A stretch of DNA of 64,000 nucleotides from Candidatus Latescibacterota bacterium (lineage in GTDB: Bacteria; Latescibacterota; UBA2968), in assembly GCA_022823725.1 (NCBI GenBank), contig JAJEHL010000026.1, positions 248,001 to 312,000 of the forward strand. Direction: 5' to 3'. A program made the translations under genes and the position numbers. The notes beneath the pieces are model-generated. The model was not told the DNA's origin and ran no database searches. It was given only the letters and a program-made list of their open reading frames with translations. Positions 23,573-37,483 of the stretch are shown here, in pieces. The first letter of the stretch is position 1, and each line of letters begins with the position of its first letter.

Positions 23573-23842
23573 TTACAGACGCTTGAGTAACTGATTATAG
23601 GCTGCATGCGATCCTATCCAAAACCAGACAATATGATCTCTGTCTCGCAAACCCAACGCTCGATACCCCATCCCAATGCGAACAGCAAAGATCGGTTGAC
23701 GCGGACTGACACGCTTGAATTGGAGACTGGAGTGATAGGGATCGGAGCGCCACAATTGGTAAGCCTGAGCAGCTTGCCTTTGAGCCTGGGAAGAAAGCCG
23801 GTTGAGTCGCCTTCGAAACTCTCTCGTAATACTGGATGTCAT
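23573..23842 (-). CDS. RelE/ParE-superfamily toxin, 89 aa
   Basis: A basic small protein with the toxin-fold pattern: two N-terminal helices (ITREFRRRLNRLSSQAQRQA), a DPYHSSLQFK turn, and three strands ending VRIGMGYRALG and IVWFWIGSHAAYNQLL. The W-x-W-I-G-x-H-x-x-Y motif marks a HigB/ParE-like family of ribonuclease or gyrase-targeting toxins. Its ATG overlaps the stop of the upstream antitoxin by four bases, so translation is coupled. The molecular target is not predictable from sequence. Confidence 0.82.
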   Translation of the reverse strand: MTSSITREFRRRLNRLSSQAQRQAAQAYQLWRSDPYHSSLQFKRVSPRQPIFAVRIGMGYRALGLRDRDHIVWFWIGSHAAYNQLLKRL

Positions 23843-24078
23843 TGCTGAGACTGATTAACAGGAAAAACATCATCAAGTGGCACTGTATCACCCGCAGCAA
23901 TTTCCTTTCGCGCTGCTTCAGCCAAACGATCCCACTGCTCATCGGTTGTGGCCTCAAAACGTTCTGTCCAGGCCTGATCATCTTTCAGGTCCGTTAGAAT
24001 ACGTGCGGCAATGGCATCCCGCTGGTCTGCTGGCAGTTTTTGAATCTCTGCGACTACCTGTTCAAGTAAATCAGCCAT
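23839..24078 (-). CDS. antitoxin of the RelE/ParE-like module, 79 aa
   Basis: An acidic helical protein: MADLLEQVVAEIQKLPADQR, then IAARILTDLKDDQAWTERFE and a C-terminal segment DTVPLDDVFP. The LP-x-x-QR-D-x-IA-x-xIL pattern is common in antitoxins preceding this toxin type. An aaggag ribosome site lies upstream of the ATG. It is the first gene of the two-gene operon, and as usual for antitoxins it would bind the toxin and probably repress its own promoter, which should lie within the 90 bases upstream. Confidence 0.8.
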   Translation of the reverse strand: MADLLEQVVAEIQKLPADQRDAIAARILTDLKDDQAWTERFEATTDEQWDRLAEAARKEIAAGDTVPLDDVFPVNQSQQ

Positions 24079-25518: not shown

Positions 25519-25566
25519 ACGAAAAAACTCTTGAAGAAATATAAAACTCTGCGTATGATGAAAAAG
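25519..25566 (+). repeat. 48-bp promoter-bearing repeat, copy 1
   Basis: Gap-free match, 40 of 48 positions, to the sequence at 28648-28695. It contains the sigma70-type promoter listed separately and a preceding A-rich block (acgaaaaaac) that is identical in both copies. Confidence 0.75.
25531..25559 (+). promoter_or_regulatory. sigma70-type promoter for the AT-rich gene at 25660
   Basis: A -35 TTGAAG and a -10 TATGAT are separated by exactly 17 bases. The promoter lies about 100 bases upstream of the following plus-strand gene. An A-rich block just upstream may act as an UP element. Confidence 0.65.
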
Positions 25567-25659: not shown

Positions 25660-26334
25660 ATGAGCATAAAAAAATTTTCTTTTCCAGGTTCAAACTTTGA
25701 ATCTGGTGTGTATGGATTAAGAGATAATACGACGGGTAAATATTTAGGACATGTCGAAAAAGAACCTGAAAAACTTGGTTTTTATCCTGTGGTTGACGGA
25801 TTGTTGCCTGAAAGATGGCTGGTAGATATAGAGGGTCTTTGGGGTAAAAAAGAAGCATTGGATATTTTGTCCGAACATATGAGGATACACAGAAAAAATT
25901 TAGAATTGGTACAGCATAATGAAAATTTTCCTGTATTATCATTTTATCCTGCTGTGAGGACAAAAAAGATGTCCAGACAACGCTTTTGTGCCGCAGTTGA
26001 AAAAATTTACAAAGAACCAAATTATTGGTTTAAAGGACCGGAAGAATTGGAAATGGTAAGTTTATCCGATGTGTTTTTAGTTTGTGATAAGTGCGGAGAA
26101 GTATCAAATACACGAGTACTATTTCATTATGGTACATTTGGAGAAGCTATTACATGTACTTATACATCCGTGAGTAAAGGAAAATGGGCTGAGTACATTA
26201 CTGAAGGAGATGTTATACATTTTTCTGCACGGTACGGCCAACGAGGGGGTGAGCCAGAAGAATGGACGTTAAAAAATATCACAAAGGTTGAAGTGCGTCG
26301 TCGTAAAGTTATTCGTATGAATACAGTTAATTAA
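25660..26334 (+). CDS. hypothetical AT-rich accessory protein, 224 aa
   Basis: No family recognised. The gene is clearly more AT-rich than the catabolic and replication genes around it, suggesting recent acquisition. The protein is soluble, rich in aromatic and charged residues, and contains one CDKCG pair near residue 143-146 (not enough for a zinc site by itself) followed by a strand-rich region (TRVLFHYGTFGEAITCTYTS). The ribosome site (gaggat) is modest. It is convergent with the ATPase/nuclease operon, which ends 38 bases beyond. It may be part of the same accessory island. Confidence 0.7.
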   Translation: MSIKKFSFPGSNFESGVYGLRDNTTGKYLGHVEKEPEKLGFYPVVDGLLPERWLVDIEGLWGKKEALDILSEHMRIHRKNLELVQHNENFPVLSFYPAVRTKKMSRQRFCAAVEKIYKEPNYWFKGPEELEMVSLSDVFLVCDKCGEVSNTRVLFHYGTFGEAITCTYTSVSKGKWAEYITEGDVIHFSARYGQRGGEPEEWTLKNITKVEVRRRKVIRMNTVN

Positions 26335-26372: not shown

Positions 26373-26939
26373 TCAGGATGACTCATCAATTAAGTTGCGA
26401 AAAGAGAGATCCGAACTCCCGAAAATTTGCAGAAAAACATCAGGACGGCTATGTAATTCTCCCTGGGACTGAATATTGGGAGTAGAATGCGTCGGTTGTT
26501 TTGGAACGTTAATGTACGCTATGCCCACAAATCGGTATTCATAGCCTTCGAGAAATCCTTTTGCTGTCCAGAATTCCGTTCCTATAGATTTGCAATAATC
26601 CATAACACACCGTGCGCCTCGCAATTGTGCAACAACTTCTCTTTTTTGGATGTTGCCTTTTTTAGTTTCAATACAGATAATCCACTTTTTCGTATCTTCA
26701 TGGGATACAATCACATAATCAGCCCGCCTGCGTTCGTCCTTTGAACCGGCAAAAAAAGCACGTCTGAGTTCAAAAACGTCCGTTTTGATAACAATTGAGT
26801 CCTGAGGTAGTTCTTTTATGACAACAGTTGTTTTGGCTTGCGTGTCGGTTAGTTCGACAGAGATCCTATCCTGCACCTGTTGCAATGGAACCTGCGCCTG
26901 AGAGATGAGCATCTCCTGTAATATTTCTATATCATTCAC
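26373..26939 (-). CDS. putative PD-(D/E)XK-type nuclease-like protein, 188 aa
   Basis: The middle of the protein reads RRADYVIVS, then a short turn, then WIICIETKKGN. This spacing matches the aspartate strand and E-x-K strand of PD-(D/E)XK nucleases, and AQLRGARCVMDY follows where RecB-type enzymes carry a glutamine helix. The N-terminus is helical (EILQEMLISQAQVPLQQVQ). I chose the GTG start four bases after the ATPase stop because ggag lies seven bases before it; an upstream TTG would overlap the ATPase and has no ribosome site. The gene is AT-rich. The fold assignment is inference from a short motif. Confidence 0.65.
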   Translation of the reverse strand: MNDIEILQEMLISQAQVPLQQVQDRISVELTDTQAKTTVVIKELPQDSIVIKTDVFELRRAFFAGSKDERRRADYVIVSHEDTKKWIICIETKKGNIQKREVVAQLRGARCVMDYCKSIGTEFWTAKGFLEGYEYRFVGIAYINVPKQPTHSTPNIQSQGELHSRPDVFLQIFGSSDLSFRNLIDESS

Positions 26940-26943
26940 GACC

Positions 26944-28374
26944 TTACTCCGCACCCCACACAATATCCCGCTGAACCCTGTTCATTTCCTCAATAGTCTC
27001 GTCAAAACTGGGAGCTTCAATGCCAAGTTCTGGATCAATATCAGCCTCCACAAGCGTATGACCTCTTCTGCGTCTCTTTTGCCCTTCTTCTAATGGCACC
27101 AATGCCTCTTGCGCCATATATACTTTAACATGATCTGAACGGATCATTTCATCATCCCGATAACCGTTTTCTTCGGCAATTATTTTCAAGTGTGGCTTAT
27201 CGTGATTAAGCATGATAAGCGTATTTAGCTCTTTGACGATGTAGTCGCTATGGGTCGTTACAAAAACTTTAATCCCTAAATTCACCAAACGCGCAAAAAG
27301 TCTGACAATGCGGCGTTGGTTTTTTGGATGAAGGTTTAACTCCGGCTCATCTACCATAAGCAAGTCCCCCTTATGAGCGATACAACGAAGATAAAAACCC
27401 ATATCCAGCAGCGAACGCACAGCACTTGAGCTTTGATCCATCGTCAACTTGGTCCCTGTCCCTTTTGGGATATAGTAGAGTTGGTCATTTTGTGTTATGG
27501 TGTAATCGCCACCGACAATATCCGCAAATTCTTCCAATACATCAGGATGTTCTTTAGTGATAAAGCTTTTTCTTTTTGAAATGTATTCAAGCTGACCTGT
27601 AAATTCTACATTGGCTTCTATTGGCGAAGGATAATTTTGGTACCCTTTGGACAGCAAGTCCCGAGAATCAGCCACTTTGTTTGCCTGCGCTATCTCGTCA
27701 AGCAGGCGGTTGCGAGCGAAATTTAGATCTCTCCGAAAAATAGCTCCACCCGTGCGCTCGGTTGAAGTGATAAAGGGAAAAGGGAGAATGGGAAAAGGAG
27801 GAGATTCACAAAAAATAATATCGCTGATCCTATTATGAATAAATCTGTTTGCAGTATGGTAAAGCATTTCTCTTCTCAGCCTTTTGTTTTTTGCCAGCAA
27901 AGTGAATATTACCTCTTCAGTCCCTTTTTTCTTTATACAACCAAAGTGCCATTCACCATCAGGCTCCCAATTATCACTATGAGTGGACATCATTTCGCGT
28001 TCATATTTCATATTGAGTATATCGGGAATTTCTATCTCAATGTGAAATTCACTGTTGCGAAACTGACCTTCTGTTGCCGCAAAAACTTCATCCAGCTTAT
28101 CCCTATATTTCTTACATGCCTCCGCAAGAATTTGATTTGCTGTTTTCACATATTGTGATAAGTCGATATTGAGAACATCATCTGTAAGCAACCTTTGTAT
28201 CTGAGCTTCACTAATCGAAAAATCCACAAGTTCGCGCCAGGACCGCAAGAAACCGTACAGTGCATAAGCCATATATGTTTTGCCGGTATTATTTTCACCG
28301 CAGATAATGGTCAAAGCACCCGGCGAAAATTCCGCATGCTTTAAGATGCCAAGATTTTTTAATCGTATTCTCAT
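26944..28374 (-). CDS. AAA/ABC-type ATPase of the OLD/RecF-like group, 476 aa
   Basis: The N-terminus MRIRLKNLGILKHAEF leads into Walker A GENNTGKT near residues 25-32. A signature-like QSSSAVRSLLDMG, Walker B LLMVDEPELNLHP and the H-motif VFVTTHSDYIVKEL follow near residues 300-400, the order of AAA_15/AAA_21 ATPases. No TOPRIM domain follows, unlike OLD nucleases; instead a separate nuclease-like gene lies four bases downstream. The start is the ATG with ggagg upstream; the frame is open 28 codons further. ATPases of this type commonly serve anti-phage systems as sensors. Confidence 0.85.
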   Translation of the reverse strand: MRIRLKNLGILKHAEFSPGALTIICGENNTGKTYMAYALYGFLRSWRELVDFSISEAQIQRLLTDDVLNIDLSQYVKTANQILAEACKKYRDKLDEVFAATEGQFRNSEFHIEIEIPDILNMKYEREMMSTHSDNWEPDGEWHFGCIKKKGTEEVIFTLLAKNKRLRREMLYHTANRFIHNRISDIIFCESPPFPILPFPFITSTERTGGAIFRRDLNFARNRLLDEIAQANKVADSRDLLSKGYQNYPSPIEANVEFTGQLEYISKRKSFITKEHPDVLEEFADIVGGDYTITQNDQLYYIPKGTGTKLTMDQSSSAVRSLLDMGFYLRCIAHKGDLLMVDEPELNLHPKNQRRIVRLFARLVNLGIKVFVTTHSDYIVKELNTLIMLNHDKPHLKIIAEENGYRDDEMIRSDHVKVYMAQEALVPLEEGQKRRRRGHTLVEADIDPELGIEAPSFDETIEEMNRVQRDIVWGAE

Positions 28375-28400
28375 ACCGATACCTCCACCACATGTAGCGA

Positions 28401-28622
28401 TCAGTTTTTCTGGTGTTGTTCTCCGAGTATAACTCCCACCCATTCGTCCCAGTGCCAAAGCGTTGCATGGCTTGTTTTACTGACCGCTGATCGCTTGTAA
28501 AGTTTAACGACAACAGCCGCAGGAATCGTGAAAAGAATAACGTAAACCACAATCTGTCGCAACTCAAAACCCTGTACAATGATCCGTATGGGGTCTGAAG
28601 CGGTGTGTGAAGGCGGGTCATT
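28401..28622 (-). CDS. possible small single-helix membrane protein, 73 aa
   Basis: A frame starting MNDPPSHTASDPIR with one hydrophobic helix (IVVYVILFTIPAAVVVKLY) and a short charged tail. It ends 26 bases before the ATPase start and points the same way, so it could be the first gene of the same operon. No clear ribosome site is visible, and a longer form starting at a TTG upstream is open but would run through the promoter repeat on the opposite strand. Not recognised; it may not be real. Confidence 0.4.
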   Translation of the reverse strand, partial: NDPPSHTASDPIRIIVQGFELRQIVVYVILFTIPAAVVVKLYKRSAVSKTSHATLWHWDEWVGVILGEQHQKN

Positions 28623-28647
28623 CATACATAGCTGTGTCAGCAGTTCA

Positions 28648-28695
28648 ACGAAAAAACCCTTGAAAGAAAGAAAAACTCTAAGTATGATGAAAAAG
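28648..28695 (+). repeat. 48-bp promoter-bearing repeat, copy 2
   Basis: Same length as copy 1 at 25519, differing at eight positions, with no gaps. The differences fall outside the -10 element, which is identical; the -35 differs only in its last base. Confidence 0.75.
28660..28688 (+). promoter_or_regulatory. sigma70-type promoter upstream of the third large permease
   Basis: A -35 TTGAAA and a -10 TATGAT are separated by 17 bases. It points toward the permease at 28849. The transcript would include hairpin repeat copy 2 in its leader of about 155 bases. Confidence 0.6.
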
Positions 28696-31322: not shown

Positions 31323-34289
31323 ATGCAATACCACCTCGCAGAAATAAAAGCATTTTGTGACGCGCATCCAATCGACGCAAAAGTCCTGATCGTCCCCACC
31401 ATGACAGTGGGACACGACCTGGCACTCGCACTTGCGGCAACGGGTTATTCTTGGCTGAACTTGCAAATCGAAACCCCACGCAGCCTCGCGGAAAAAGACG
31501 CGAGTGCCCTGCTCATCGCGGAAGGGCATGCGCGCATGGCGCAAGACGCGGACTTATTCTGGCTGGACGAAATGATTCCCCAGGCTGTAAGCGAAGTCAA
31601 CGACGATTACTTCGCACAACAGGCCACCGCACTCACGCGCCCATTTCTGCGCACATTGCGCGTCCTGCGTACAGCGGGACTGAAGCCCGACGAACTTTCT
31701 ATGAAAGATCAGCGACATCAACTATTGCAGCGCCTTTATCAGACATATTGCGCGGCGTTTGAAAGAGACAGCCTCTACGACAACGCCGTCTTGTATCAAC
31801 GCGCATTGAAACATCTAAAATCACCCTCACAAAACACGCACTATGCCATCCTCGACGAAACCCCATTACCCAGACTGGCATTCTCTTATCTCCAAGAAAA
31901 AACAAAGGGATATATCTGGCGTATCGGGGGAAAAGATATGGGCATATCGCCTCCGCCGCACAGCGCAGCAAAACGCTTTCCCAAAGCACCCTATCCCGCC
32001 GCCACGGGCAAAATCGGAGTGGGCAAAAACATATTCACAACCGGACTGACCCCCAGAGATCATTCTCAAATTCAACTGTGCGAAACCCTGGGCACAGAAA
32101 CAGAAATCAGCGCCGTATTGCGCGACATAAAATCGGGCTCCATACCCCTGGACACCGTCGAAATCGCATACACCTCGAAAATGCCTTATGTGAGCCTGTT
32201 GTGCGATGCGGTTCAGCGATATGGACTACCCGCCACATTTGCCGAAGGCATACCCATATCGACAACCCGAACCGGTCACGCACTGGTGAACTTCTACCGG
32301 TGGATAGGCGCGGGATATCCCCCTGACGAACTGATAATGATGTGCCGCGCGGGCTTGATCGCCTCTGAAAGCGCACCTGCAATCGCAACCATCCTCCAAC
32401 AAACGCACATTGGCAAAGGCGAAGGTCCCCGGCACTATTTTATTGCCCTGAACCAGATAAAAGCCGACCTGCGCGATAGAGAAGCCGAAAACTCGGAAAG
32501 CGGTTATCGCGGATTGACCCTTGAAGAGATCGAAACCGTTGAAGAAGAACTGACGCGCTTATTCGACCTGATCCCCCAAAGCCCCAGTGTATCGCTCGGT
32601 GCATTGGTCAATGCTGGCTTGCAATTTCTCGAACACTTTACAAACGCCGAAGAAGAGGTCCTCACCGAGATCCAGGATCGTCTGCACCACATAGCTCAAT
32701 CCGTGCGTCGCAAAGCACCTGTGCGCCGACTGGCAAGCCGTCTAACAGAACTGATCGCCAACCTTTCTTTTAAAGCCGAAGCAGCCAAACCCGGACATCT
32801 ATCAATTGCCCCACTTCCGCGCGCTGGATACACCAATCGCGCACATATTTACGTCACGGGCATGGATGAAGCCACCTTCCCCGGCGGAGCAACAGAAGAT
32901 CCCATATTATTAGATGGCGAGCGCTCTGGCGTATCCGGTGAACTGGAACTGCGCCGCACGCGACCCGCCGAGCAAGTGTGGCATCTCATTCGCATATTGA
33001 GTATGGCATCTAACAAAGTGACATTATTATCGTGCCATCAAAGCCTATCCGGCAGCCGGGAACGTTATCCCGCCGCGATCTTTCAACAAGCTGCCGAACA
33101 GATGGACTGTGATCCTGTACTTACACACGCCTTGCCCGAAAATCCTGTACAGGCACTGGACGATGCAGAGACATTGATGGCACACCATTCCTCTACCGAC
33201 TACGAATCCGTTGTGAAACAAACATACCCCTATCTGGTTGCTGGACAAACGGCGCGCCAAAATCGCGAATGGGATGGACTGACGACCTATGATGGATGGC
33301 TCGGTAAATCTACACCCGAATTGGCGATTATCCCACAACACGGCATATTTTCACCCTCAAGACTGGAAATGCTCGCCCGATGTCCCTACCGGTATTTTTT
33401 GAACCATGTACTCGACATTCAGCCCATAGAAAAATCCGAACCCGACCCCACGCGATGGCTCGATCCCCTATCTTTTGGTGCTCTGTTACACAGCCTATTT
33501 CACAAATTTATGCAAACCCTGAAAGCGCGAGGCGAACGCCCGGATCGCGAACGACACGGCACACTCATCCAGGAACTCCTGCAAAAAGAAATAGAAGCGA
33601 AAAAAGAAACCCACCCCGTTGAACACGAAGCGGCGTATCGCGCCGACGTCAAACGCCTATCGCAAGCCGCGCAGGTATTTTTGGCCGTCGAGTCCGACCA
33701 AAAAAACGCCGACCCCATCGGATTTGAAGTGAGCTTCGGATTTGGCGAATCGGGCGGACTTAATTGCGCAACCCCCATAACACTCGAACTCGCAGAAGAT
33801 GTCTCATTTCGCATCCGCGGGCGCATTGACCGCGTGGATCGCGTCGAAAACAACCTCGTAATTTGGGATTACAAAACCGGATCAATGGCGCAATACGACG
33901 AACGGGACCTGCTCAAACGCGGCACGCATCTGCAATGGGCACTGTACGCTTATGCCCTGAATTCGATCTTAAAACAACAGAAACCTGACCGCGTACAATT
34001 ATCCGGCTACGTCTTTCCCGGCGACAGAGAACACGGCCGTCGGCTTTCAGAAACGCCACCCGCGCCCGAAACGCTCGCCAATGTGTTGCGCCCTCTGCTC
34101 GAACTGGTAGAGAAGGGTGGCTTTTTTCACATTCAAAAATCCCAGGAATGCGACTACTGCATCTACAACCGCGTCTGCAGCAAAGAGCGCCTGGACGCCA
34201 ACGCCCTCGCCGACGCGCGCGAAACAATGGACGACGATCCCGACTTCGCGCCCTTGCTGGACAGCCTGAATCGCTGGATGGGAATATGA
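31323..34289 (+). CDS. addB: AddB-like helicase-nuclease subunit with Fe-S cluster cysteines, 988 aa
   Basis: Subunit of a RecBCD-like DNA double-strand break repair complex. The C-terminal PD-(D/E)XK nuclease is clear: FGALLHSLFHKF near residue 720, then RGRIDRVD and VIWDYKTGS. The four iron-sulfur ligands of AddB are present: Cys687 in ARCPYRYF, and Cys943, Cys946 and Cys952 in CDYCIYNRVC. The N-terminal half is the inactivated helicase-like scaffold; I see no Walker A at its start, unlike Bacillus AddB but as in RexB-type proteins. The start codon follows aaggaa, and the stop overlaps the AddA start by four bases. Confidence 0.9.
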   Translation: MQYHLAEIKAFCDAHPIDAKVLIVPTMTVGHDLALALAATGYSWLNLQIETPRSLAEKDASALLIAEGHARMAQDADLFWLDEMIPQAVSEVNDDYFAQQATALTRPFLRTLRVLRTAGLKPDELSMKDQRHQLLQRLYQTYCAAFERDSLYDNAVLYQRALKHLKSPSQNTHYAILDETPLPRLAFSYLQEKTKGYIWRIGGKDMGISPPPHSAAKRFPKAPYPAATGKIGVGKNIFTTGLTPRDHSQIQLCETLGTETEISAVLRDIKSGSIPLDTVEIAYTSKMPYVSLLCDAVQRYGLPATFAEGIPISTTRTGHALVNFYRWIGAGYPPDELIMMCRAGLIASESAPAIATILQQTHIGKGEGPRHYFIALNQIKADLRDREAENSESGYRGLTLEEIETVEEELTRLFDLIPQSPSVSLGALVNAGLQFLEHFTNAEEEVLTEIQDRLHHIAQSVRRKAPVRRLASRLTELIANLSFKAEAAKPGHLSIAPLPRAGYTNRAHIYVTGMDEATFPGGATEDPILLDGERSGVSGELELRRTRPAEQVWHLIRILSMASNKVTLLSCHQSLSGSRERYPAAIFQQAAEQMDCDPVLTHALPENPVQALDDAETLMAHHSSTDYESVVKQTYPYLVAGQTARQNREWDGLTTYDGWLGKSTPELAIIPQHGIFSPSRLEMLARCPYRYFLNHVLDIQPIEKSEPDPTRWLDPLSFGALLHSLFHKFMQTLKARGERPDRERHGTLIQELLQKEIEAKKETHPVEHEAAYRADVKRLSQAAQVFLAVESDQKNADPIGFEVSFGFGESGGLNCATPITLELAEDVSFRIRGRIDRVDRVENNLVIWDYKTGSMAQYDERDLLKRGTHLQWALYAYALNSILKQQKPDRVQLSGYVFPGDREHGRRLSETPPAPETLANVLRPLLELVEKGGFFHIQKSQECDYCIYNRVCSKERLDANALADARETMDDDPDFAPLLDSLNRWMGI

Positions 34290-37200
34290 ACCTTCGAGAT
34301 CAACAAGCACGCGATAAAATAGCTAACGCACTGGATCGCAATATGATGGTGCTCGCAGGAGCGGGCGCGGGAAAAACCTATGCGCTGGTGCAGCGGATGG
34401 CGAACGCGGTACAAACAGGTGTCGTAACCGTAGATCAACTATCCGCCATCACCTTCACGCGCAAAGCAGCAGGTGAAATGCGCGGGCGATTTTTCAGTGA
34501 ATTAAAATCGCGTGCTAAAAAAGCAGATGGTGACGATCTGAATCGCATTCAAAACGCACTCGAAAAAGTAGATCAATGCTTTATTGGCACCATACACTCA
34601 TTCTGCGGCCAGTTATTGCGCGAACGCCCCGTTGAAGCGGGCCTGCCGCCCGACTTTTCAGAAGTCGAAGAGCGCGAAGAAGCCGTCATGCGCCGCGAAG
34701 CATGGGATCAATTTGTCCAAAAGAGTTTTCTATCCGAAGACCCGCAACTCGCCCAATTTGAAGAACTGGGCCTCCGCCCGGAAGATCTGTATGGATTTTT
34801 TCAAAGACGCTACCAGTTCAGCGATGTACCGCTCATACGCGAACGAGTCCCAAAACCCGATTTATCGACCGCAGTTTCACAACTCGAAGCCTTTCTACAA
34901 CACACAGAAGCCTTTATCCCCGATCCACTACCCGGCAGACGCGATGCCCTCCAGACAGCCTTGACGCGCGCGCGATCATTCTTGTCGAACCGGGGGATAC
35001 ACTCCGATGCGGATCGCATCGCCCTCTTGCAAATACTCACCGGCAACCTCGGTGTCACCCTGAAAAGCTGGACGCCCAATCAGGATTTTGCAAAGCACTT
35101 GCGAGATAGCTTATTCCCCGAATTTCAAACCGAAACACTCAACCCCACCCTCACCAGATGGCGGCAATACATCTACCAATTTGCCGCACCCTATGTCGAT
35201 GATGCTGTTGAAGAATACGCCAGAACCCGCCGCGAAACCGGTCGCCTTACCTTTCAAGACCTGCTCGAACTGGCCGTGCGATTATTGCGCAATCACCCCG
35301 AAGTGCGCCGTCACTTTCAGGATCGCTATCGCTGCCTGTTCGTAGATGAATTTCAGGATACCGATCCCATTCAGGCCGAAATATTGCTGTATTTAACCGG
35401 CGAAAACCTGGAAGAAACCGATTGGCGCAAACTCACACCTCGCCCGGGCAGCTTATTTTTAGTCGGCGACAGCAAACAATCGATCTATCGCTTTCGCCGC
35501 GCGGACGTCGAAACCTTTGACCTCGTCCGCAACCGCATTGCCGATACCAATGGCGATATCGTCAACCTCAACACGAACTTTCGCTCATTGGGTCCCCTCT
35601 GTGATTGGATCAACGCGGCATTTGAACCCCTGTTCGCCGCGCATGAAAAACCCTATCAAGCCGAATTTGCTCCGCTATTCAAATACAGACCCGATGATGA
35701 AACAGATGCAGTCCGCCGAATCTCAATCGACAAAGTCTATCGCAACAGCCGAAGCCAGATCGCGGAGCAAGACGCCGAGCAAATTGCAAACTTCATCGCA
35801 ACGACCATAAATGGAGAAGACACCAGCGTATCGCCGGGCGACTTTCTCATCTTGACGCGCACCTCTGGTTATTTGTCCCATTACGCCCAGGCACTGGAAA
35901 AGTGCGGTATTCCCTTTGAAATCACGGGTGGTGATCGCCTGGGCGAAGCAGACGTATTGCACACACTCGCGGACTTTTTGGAAACAGTTTATATGCCCGA
36001 CAATCCGCTCCCACTACTCGCCTATTTGCGGGGCGATCTCGTCGGCCTGGGAGATGATATCCTCTATGAATTCAAAAAAACAGGCGGTGTTTTCAACTGG
36101 ACACGCGATCTGCCCAAGAGGATGGATCCAGAATTACACCGGACCTTCGCGCAGGCTTATGAACATCTCAAAAACGCGTCGGAATGGCTACAATCCCTAT
36201 CGCCCGATACCGCCATAGCGCGCTGTGTAGAAAAACTCGGCCTCCTGCCCTTTGTACATACCCAGCCTATGGGCGCAACACATGCCGGCAATCTCATCCG
36301 CATCTTATCTCTCGTCCGCGAATGGACAGCGCAGGGATTGCATTGGGGGCAGGTCGTGACCGAACTGCGTGCCCTCATCGACGACAGAGACTACAAAATT
36401 GAACAAATGACCCTCCCTTCCGCACAGGAAGACGTCGTGCGATTGATGAACCTGCACCAGGCTAAGGGATTACAGGGCAAAATCGTCTTCCTCGCCGACC
36501 CCTATGACACGAGTTACACGCGCTATGGTCCCGAGTTTCACGTATCCCGCACCAGCGACGAACCCTTTTTGGCATTACCCATTACAAAACCCCGCGGGCC
36601 ATATCAACGCGAGGTCGTTGCCGAGCCTGTGGATTGGGAAGACGCCGAAACCGAAGAAACGCGATTTTTACAAGGCGAAGAACTGCGATTGCTCTACGTA
36701 GCAGCAACGCGCGCAGAAAATTTGCTCGTGGTATCCACCTACGAGGAAAAACCCGACCATGGACCGTGGTCCCCGCTTTATCCCCATCTAAAAAACGTGC
36801 CCGAACTGGCGCACGGCAACCATTCACCGCATCCCATCCCGGAAACGCCATCAACCAAAACGCCGTCCGTAGAATTGGAACGAGAGCAAAGAGATCAATT
36901 CTGGCAAACTGTGAAAAAAGAATCGTTTAAGGTCGCGCAGGTGACAGATGATCGCGCAGACATCACATATTCGGACGAGGGGCGATCAGCAACGGGCAGA
37001 GGAGCTGCGTACGGCACCGTGATCCACCACATATTCGACGATGCCATCAACAGGCGATTGCCCGATGATCCCACACCTTATGTCATACATTTGCTACAGG
37101 AGGCGGGCGCAGACGCCGGGTTTCTACCACAAGCACTGAACGCATTGCAGCATTTTCGCAACTCGGAGATATGGACGGAAATACAGGCTTCAGAAACCGT

Positions 37201-37483
37201 TTATACCGAAGTTCCCTTCGCAATATCGCAAGCGGAGAACAACGTCTCACCCGACAAAATTATTCGCGGCGTCATCGATCTGGCCTATCGCCTGCCCAAA
37301 GGATGGAAAATCGTCGATTACAAAACCAATGCAGTCAAAACCGACGAAGATGTACAGGTACTATGCGAACAAACAGCCGACCAGGTGAACACCTATGCGG
37401 AACACTGGGCGAAATTCACCGGCGAACCTGTTGTTTCAAAGGGCTTGTGGCTAACGGAAAGACGTGAATTTATAATCGTTTAA
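34286..37483 (+). CDS. addA: AddA-like UvrD-family helicase-nuclease, 1065 aa
   Basis: ATP-dependent 3'-5' helicase fused to a nuclease, partner of the preceding AddB. Walker A GAGAGKT lies at about 24-30, followed by AITFTRKAAGEM, motif II VDEFQDTDPIQ, motif III VGDSKQSIYRFRRAD, the later LMNLHQAKGLQGKIVFL, and motif VI LLYVAATRAENLL. The C-terminal nuclease has IIRGVIDLAY and WKIVDYKTN. Length is close to other AddA proteins. The start was put at the ATG overlapping the addB stop; 46 upstream in-frame codons lie within addB and are not helicase-like. The pair loads RecA after resecting ends at Chi-like sites. Confidence 0.93.
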   Translation: MNLRDQQARDKIANALDRNMMVLAGAGAGKTYALVQRMANAVQTGVVTVDQLSAITFTRKAAGEMRGRFFSELKSRAKKADGDDLNRIQNALEKVDQCFIGTIHSFCGQLLRERPVEAGLPPDFSEVEEREEAVMRREAWDQFVQKSFLSEDPQLAQFEELGLRPEDLYGFFQRRYQFSDVPLIRERVPKPDLSTAVSQLEAFLQHTEAFIPDPLPGRRDALQTALTRARSFLSNRGIHSDADRIALLQILTGNLGVTLKSWTPNQDFAKHLRDSLFPEFQTETLNPTLTRWRQYIYQFAAPYVDDAVEEYARTRRETGRLTFQDLLELAVRLLRNHPEVRRHFQDRYRCLFVDEFQDTDPIQAEILLYLTGENLEETDWRKLTPRPGSLFLVGDSKQSIYRFRRADVETFDLVRNRIADTNGDIVNLNTNFRSLGPLCDWINAAFEPLFAAHEKPYQAEFAPLFKYRPDDETDAVRRISIDKVYRNSRSQIAEQDAEQIANFIATTINGEDTSVSPGDFLILTRTSGYLSHYAQALEKCGIPFEITGGDRLGEADVLHTLADFLETVYMPDNPLPLLAYLRGDLVGLGDDILYEFKKTGGVFNWTRDLPKRMDPELHRTFAQAYEHLKNASEWLQSLSPDTAIARCVEKLGLLPFVHTQPMGATHAGNLIRILSLVREWTAQGLHWGQVVTELRALIDDRDYKIEQMTLPSAQEDVVRLMNLHQAKGLQGKIVFLADPYDTSYTRYGPEFHVSRTSDEPFLALPITKPRGPYQREVVAEPVDWEDAETEETRFLQGEELRLLYVAATRAENLLVVSTYEEKPDHGPWSPLYPHLKNVPELAHGNHSPHPIPETPSTKTPSVELEREQRDQFWQTVKKESFKVAQVTDDRADITYSDEGRSATGRGAAYGTVIHHIFDDAINRRLPDDPTPYVIHLLQEAGADAGFLPQALNALQHFRNSEIWTEIQASETVYTEVPFAISQAENNVSPDKIIRGVIDLAYRLPKGWKIVDYKTNAVKTDEDVQVLCEQTADQVNTYAEHWAKFTGEPVVSKGLWLTERREFIIV

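Follow-up and report, generated by a model that had tools for sequence, protein, structure and literature searches.

A paired OLD-type ABC ATPase and predicted PD-(D/E)XK nuclease of the PDC-M47 family as a candidate anti-phage module in a Latescibacterota bacterium

Two adjacent genes in a Candidatus Latescibacterota bacterium are, by their profile matches, a member of PDC-M47, a candidate anti-phage system already catalogued in PADLOC. They lie in the 64,000-nucleotide stretch of DNA that we analysed, referred to here as the window. The first, A, matches PDC-M47A at 2.7e-194 (residues 1-475 of 476 against profile positions 1-460 of 461), and the second, B, matches PDC-M47B at 2.5e-57 (residues 1-185 of 188 against positions 1-184 of 186). 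Thus, the pair has a named family, which a sequence-only reading had failed to find. We suggest, with a probability of about three in four, that the two genes form an anti-phage module of an OLD-ABC-ATPase and a restriction-fold nuclease, in which A would sense infection and B, held on the C-terminus of A, would cut nucleic acid with an abortive outcome. The layout of a sensor ATPase with a separate nuclease effector, as proposed in the sequence-only reading, is supported by the PDC-M47 match, the obligate pairing, the accessory status, the embedding in BREX and restriction-modification (R-M) operons elsewhere, and the consistent predicted folds. The defence role of the window copy itself is still something that we infer. 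In the literature that we searched, we found neither an experiment on nor a mention of PDC-M47, and no phage, trigger or target for any member.

The features are collected in Table 1. The two open reading frames, their order, strand and 4-nt gap are confirmed by the sequence. The start of A is the ATG at 28374, preceded by a GGAGG that is kept in four species in the alignment, and a GGAG lies 7 nt ahead of the GTG of B, within the 3' end of A. Both genes are AT-rich as first described, with a G+C content of 41.4% in A and 42.2% in B versus about 50% in the surroundings. We regard A and B as real genes because their dN/dS values against the relative G003 are 0.22 and 0.15, respectively. For A the range is 0.15-0.22 against sister species, and for B it is 0.31-0.40 against the more divergent copies with glutamine at position 93. 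A one-helix membrane protein had been put forward as a possible third component, and this we reject. Of the four species in which the syntenic DNA is present, just two preserve its reading frame (28401-28622); in G003 and G007 frameshifts or stops interrupt it, and we therefore consider it spurious.

Table 1. Positions of the gene pair and of the features around it in the window.
Feature	Position	Strand	Remarks
ParE-like toxin with small upstream partner	23573-24078	-	
Left 48-nt direct repeat	25519..25566	+	brackets the 224-aa gene, B and A
Convergent 224-aa gene	25660..26334	+	inside the repeat-bracketed insert; no family match in profile searches
B, small predicted PD-(D/E)XK-type nuclease (PDC-M47B family)	26373..26939	-	188 aa, GTG start
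A-B intergenic gap	26940..26943	-	4 nt; TAA-GGTC-GTG, read from sequence
A, OLD-type ABC ATPase (PDC-M47A family)	26944..28374	-	476 aa
Region upstream of A	28375..28647	-	ribosome-binding site GGAGG; four-species alignment
Right 48-nt direct repeat	28648..28695	+	brackets the 224-aa gene, B and A

A carries a complete set of ABC ATPase motifs, namely a Walker A (GENNTGKT, residues 26-33), a signature (SSSAVRS, 315-321), a Walker B (LLMVDEPELNLHP, 338-350) and an H-loop (TTHSDY, 373-378). In alignments, all four are intact and kept across phyla. Pfam assigns A to AAA_15 (7.4e-26) and AAA_21, and profile searches matched no TOPRIM or nuclease family in it. This bears out the description of A as an OLD-like ATPase without a nuclease or TOPRIM domain of its own, the arrangement found in WonAB-type ATPases. 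The AF2 model of A has a pLDDT of 83.4, and its best Foldseek match is PtuA of retron/Septu systems (E 2.2e-11), followed by Rad50 and SMC. One insert, at about residues 101-190 (27805-28074 in the window), is hypervariable, with 18-32% identity to relative G008 versus roughly 70-90% over most of the remainder of A. From this pattern of change we consider the insert a candidate sensor region that is changing rapidly.

The putative active site of B is D74...E91-T-K93, together with Q105. Across 81 homologous proteins D74, E91, Q105, G108, C111, Y115, W124 and R136 are invariant, and the conservation of the D and E exceeds chance expectation. Thus, of the D...E-x-K motif that had been read from the sequence, the two acidic residues stand in 81 of 81 homologues, but the lysine is variable: position 93 is occupied by K in 54 proteins, by Q in 26 and by H in one, a ratio that is no census since the pattern by which the loci were fetched admitted either K or Q. 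A structural model of B, built from 61 natural sequences, has a pLDDT of 88.1 (AF2) and a pTM of 0.87. It contains strands at 75-81 and 84-92, a helix at 99-123 and a strand at 134-141, the beta-beta-helix-beta order expected of a PD-(D/E)XK core. D74 lies just before the first of these strands and E91 within the second, so that B has the D and E at two core strands and a third catalytic residue, K or Q. The top Foldseek ranks go to FokI and BamHI, but their E-values of 0.04-0.13 fall short of significance. Since no E-value is under 0.04, the PD-(D/E)XK fold of B is supported by the model rather than proven. Pfam gives only a sub-threshold match to HSDR_N_2 (E 0.036), the sequence search returned no relatives of solved structure, and profile searches returned no HNH family.

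The variable lysine counts to some extent against a defence function, since about a third of the fetched B homologues are without the usual catalytic residue. Given the Gln at position 93 in 26 of 81 proteins and the existence of broken copies, the Gln-type B could be catalytically dead and the system decaying or free of cleavage where it occurs, with the Lys-type copy in the window as the active form. We consider this improbable. E-x-Q active sites occur naturally, for example in BglII. The Gln-type copies also retain D74, E91, Q105 and the partner A, and they are distributed through a supported clade that comprises many species. In the tree of B they fill most of a clade of 30 rows (Poribacteria, Caldilineaceae and 'Latescibacterota'), and the window pair and four further Lys-type rows are nested inside it. 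Because of this nesting, residue 93 appears, by our reading of the printed tree, to have changed at least three or four times.

The two genes travel together. A profile scan of GTDB genomes gave 80 B loci in about ten phyla, including Poribacteria, Chloroflexota, Cyanobacteria, Pseudomonadota and Thermodesulfobacteriota. A lies directly upstream on the same strand at 78 of them, with a spacing of -14 to +5 nt, and the remaining two are at contig ends. There is no intact orphan B among the 80 loci, and no intact A of the PDC-M47 type without B in 100 relatives of the window genome. We found no B in viral contigs; viral contigs and plasmids do contain more distant relatives of A with a small partner, as does a Vibrio P2-like phage, where they lie beside the CI repressor. 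Among the 100 relatives, matches to A occur in 11 and to B in 8, and the module is missing from four of the eleven members of the genus. The pair is therefore accessory, with a patchy distribution in the genus.

The host is a sponge-symbiont-like bacterium of an uncultured lineage. At the window site the order is an RG-lyase-like gene, the 224-aa gene, B, A, a MacB permease and an AddB-like gene. In relatives, the module is present at this site in G003 and G004. In G007 it is broken by an insertion (L008, 1501-3997) that carries a TnpB-like protein on the opposite strand and cuts A at about residue 419, and B is lost. G006 has the 224-aa gene alone there, and G002 and G009 have neither this gene nor the pair at the site. 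In G046 an in-frame internal deletion takes out the core of B with its active site (L014, 1211-1510) and A is intact. The two copies of the 48-nt repeat that bracket the insert are 83% identical, and the genome holds no third occurrence of the repeat core. In G002 the flanks of the site join at one copy of the repeat, and in G009 the deletion begins exactly at it. There is no recombinase within the repeat-bracketed insert. The 224-aa gene is conserved in G003, G004 and G006 and degenerate in G010 and G007. We rejected it as an obligate partner, because it is intact without the pair in G006 and absent at other loci of the pair.

The window is no defence island. The sequence-only reading had placed the pair among toxin-antitoxin genes; one ParE-like pair is there, but the other neighbours that we tested are housekeeping or metabolic genes (RG-lyase-like, MacB permease and AddB-like with PDDEXK_1). 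In G004 the syntenic region lacks part of the ParE-like stretch. The AddB-like protein with PDDEXK_1 is followed by a 1111-aa open reading frame that is possibly AddA-like (31323-37483 together), and these genes are near the module across the genus. The ParE-like pair nearby, the tight coupling and overlap of A and B and the lack of an intact orphan B would all suit an addiction module, in which a nuclease toxin, B, is neutralised by A and the two are retained selfishly and not for defence. We judge this quite unlikely. Addiction should hinder the losses and breaks that are seen in G002, G006, G009, G007 and G046. Also, typical antitoxins do not look like A, an ATPase of 476 aa that is under purifying selection, and WonA of the WonAB system is needed for toxicity, the opposite of what an antitoxin does.

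Elsewhere the pair is found in a defence context. In Nitrosomonas, Methylobacter, Desulfobacteraceae and KSB1 it lies beside or between BrxC and PglX, and where it is embedded in a BREX operon the order is brxC, A, B, pglX. Outside Poribacteria there are 116 immediate neighbours, in which PADLOC identified BrxB (3), PglZ, PglX, PtuA, a type I specificity protein, a type III methylase and mad3. The Poribacteria set has 68 neighbours, five of which it identified as DNA methylases; both are raw counts without a matched random-gene control. In G008 the pair adjoins a type I methylase. In G002 a pair of a second A-B type is preceded by a type IIG-like enzyme and, directly upstream, by a 767-aa TIR-domain protein with a ThsB-like N-terminus (L145, 4418-6721). 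Many copies in Poribacteria and cyanobacteria are in metabolic surroundings. Pairs of an OLD-ABC ATPase and a PD-(D/E)XK nuclease were described as BREX auxiliaries in 2026 (PMC12839542), so the BREX context is already known in general. This embedding in other phyla is one reason to regard a host DNA repair pair of the Rad50-Mre11 or RecF type as highly improbable, despite the resemblance of the A fold to Rad50 and SMC and the AddB-like repair gene close by. In addition, the best match of A is PtuA and not Rad50, the pair is missing from most relatives as well as from those four members of the genus, and we see both swaps of the module and a site that lacks it. Repair, addiction and decay thus all rank below defence.

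The window copy shows no difference from PDC-M47, and it sits in a metabolic neighbourhood near the AddB-like gene. The nearest tested relatives of the pair are PD-T4-4 and WonAB. PD-T4-4 was selected in an E. coli phage-resistance screen as an anti-T4 system (Vassallo 2022; PMC9519451), and a review assigns AAA ATPase and PD-(D/E)XK domains to it (PMC10952713). It shares the two-gene layout, and A matches PD-T4-4_A over its full length (PADLOC 4.7e-150). However, B matches PD-T4-4_B at merely E 0.015 over 50 residues in hmmscan and is not a partner of that type. Profile alignment points to a remote relation (hhalign probability 96.1 over 124 columns), and a second group of partner proteins, beside the more distant relatives of A, is equally related (profile-profile probability 96.3). 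The plasmid and phage relatives of PD-T4-4 type have a nuclease with D...D/Q-x-K. The WonAB or 'OLD-ABC ATPase + novel REase' operons likewise place a small PD-(D/E)xK nuclease after an OLD-type ABC ATPase and have no TOPRIM (PMC12137116). They differ, from the published description, in WonB (16.1 kDa, K71, versus 188 aa and K93 in B) and in the key residues of WonA (K34/E300/H333 versus K32/E343/H375 in A). Septu and retron PtuAB also combine an ATPase with a separate small nuclease, and PtuA is the best solved-fold match of A. However, PtuB is an HNH protein whereas B is PD-(D/E)XK-like, and the sequence match of A to PtuA is far weaker than to PDC-M47A. PARIS (AriA/AriB), OLD and Gabija have an AAA_15/OLD-type defence ATPase as well (A matches the AriA profile at 4.7e-28), but their effector is TOPRIM (AriB, OLD, GajA), which is found in neither A nor B.

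For the mechanism, we infer each step, from dimerisation, sensing and docking to activation, target and abortive outcome. A would most likely form an ATP-dependent dimer, sense an infection cue through the fast-evolving insert and carry B on its C-terminal extension. Activation would release B or switch it on, and B would then cleave nucleic acid. This cleavage would shut the cell down and leave the phage cycle incomplete. The precedent is WonAB, whose function depends on each of the two genes, on the ATPase motifs and on the lysine of the nuclease; WonB is toxic only with WonA present and WonB in excess, and it arrests translation and growth with chromosomal DNA intact, which points to tRNA or rRNA (PMC12137116). 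Because of this precedent, our preferred model is a sensor ATPase that switches on a nuclease docked to it and so aborts infection, and the chief competing reading is direct restriction of DNA. By analogy with WonAB, tRNA/rRNA or nucleic acid broadly would be a likelier target of B than a specific phage DNA site. Under direct restriction, a dimer of A would recognise foreign or unusual DNA and B would cut it, so that the phage is cleared without cell death. Several observations suit this. The top structural ranks of B are the DNA restriction enzymes FokI and BamHI, the invariant D74, E91 and Q105 befit a DNA-cutting PD-(D/E)XK enzyme, the pair is embedded in DNA-acting BREX and R-M operons, and A resembles the DNA-binding Rad50 and SMC. 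We nevertheless hold restriction to be unlikely, though more credible than the other alternatives. B is small and a separate DNA-recognition domain is not evident from its length or model, and WonB, the best-studied nuclease of the same layout, spares chromosomal DNA and stops translation.

A comparison between the window and the same locus in the sister species G004 suggests where B docks. Identity is 84-98% in most flanking genes and segments of A, and 96-99% in the 224-aa gene. Across the final ~70 codons of A it drops to 85-82%, and across B to 67-73%, before recovering. At the protein level, A of G004 is 93% identical to its window counterpart and B only 59%, and the G004 B is of the Gln type; B of G003 is 92% identical to window B. 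The simplest reading is that in G004 B has been replaced, along with the C-terminus of A (its last ~70 residues), by a Gln-type version. Since the two appear to have been replaced together, we regard the C-terminal ~70 residues of A as the probable dock for the nuclease. In WonAB, the nuclease has been modelled as docking on a C-terminal extension of the ATPase (PMC12137116). The coupled replacement in G004 fits such docking of B on the C-terminal extension of A.

Thus, the pair is an ordinary, well-supported member of PDC-M47, and its useful details are the coupled effector replacement and the Lys/Gln catalytic polymorphism. An unannotated pair of an uncultured lineage is thereby placed in a family for which we found no tested member in the literature searched. 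It also offers natural test material, namely a pair of species with nearly the same ATPase but different nucleases, the Lys/Gln polymorphism and, for comparison, a site that lacks the module. We tentatively raise the possibility, which we rate somewhat below even odds, that PDC-M47 is a modular sensor-effector platform. Here, recombination at one fixed locus would let a single ATPase exchange entire nucleases along with the C-terminal dock that it provides, and the catalytic centre of the effector would toggle between E-x-K and E-x-Q. If true, nuclease activity would thereby be tuned naturally in an abortive system, either standalone or plugged into BREX or R-M operons.
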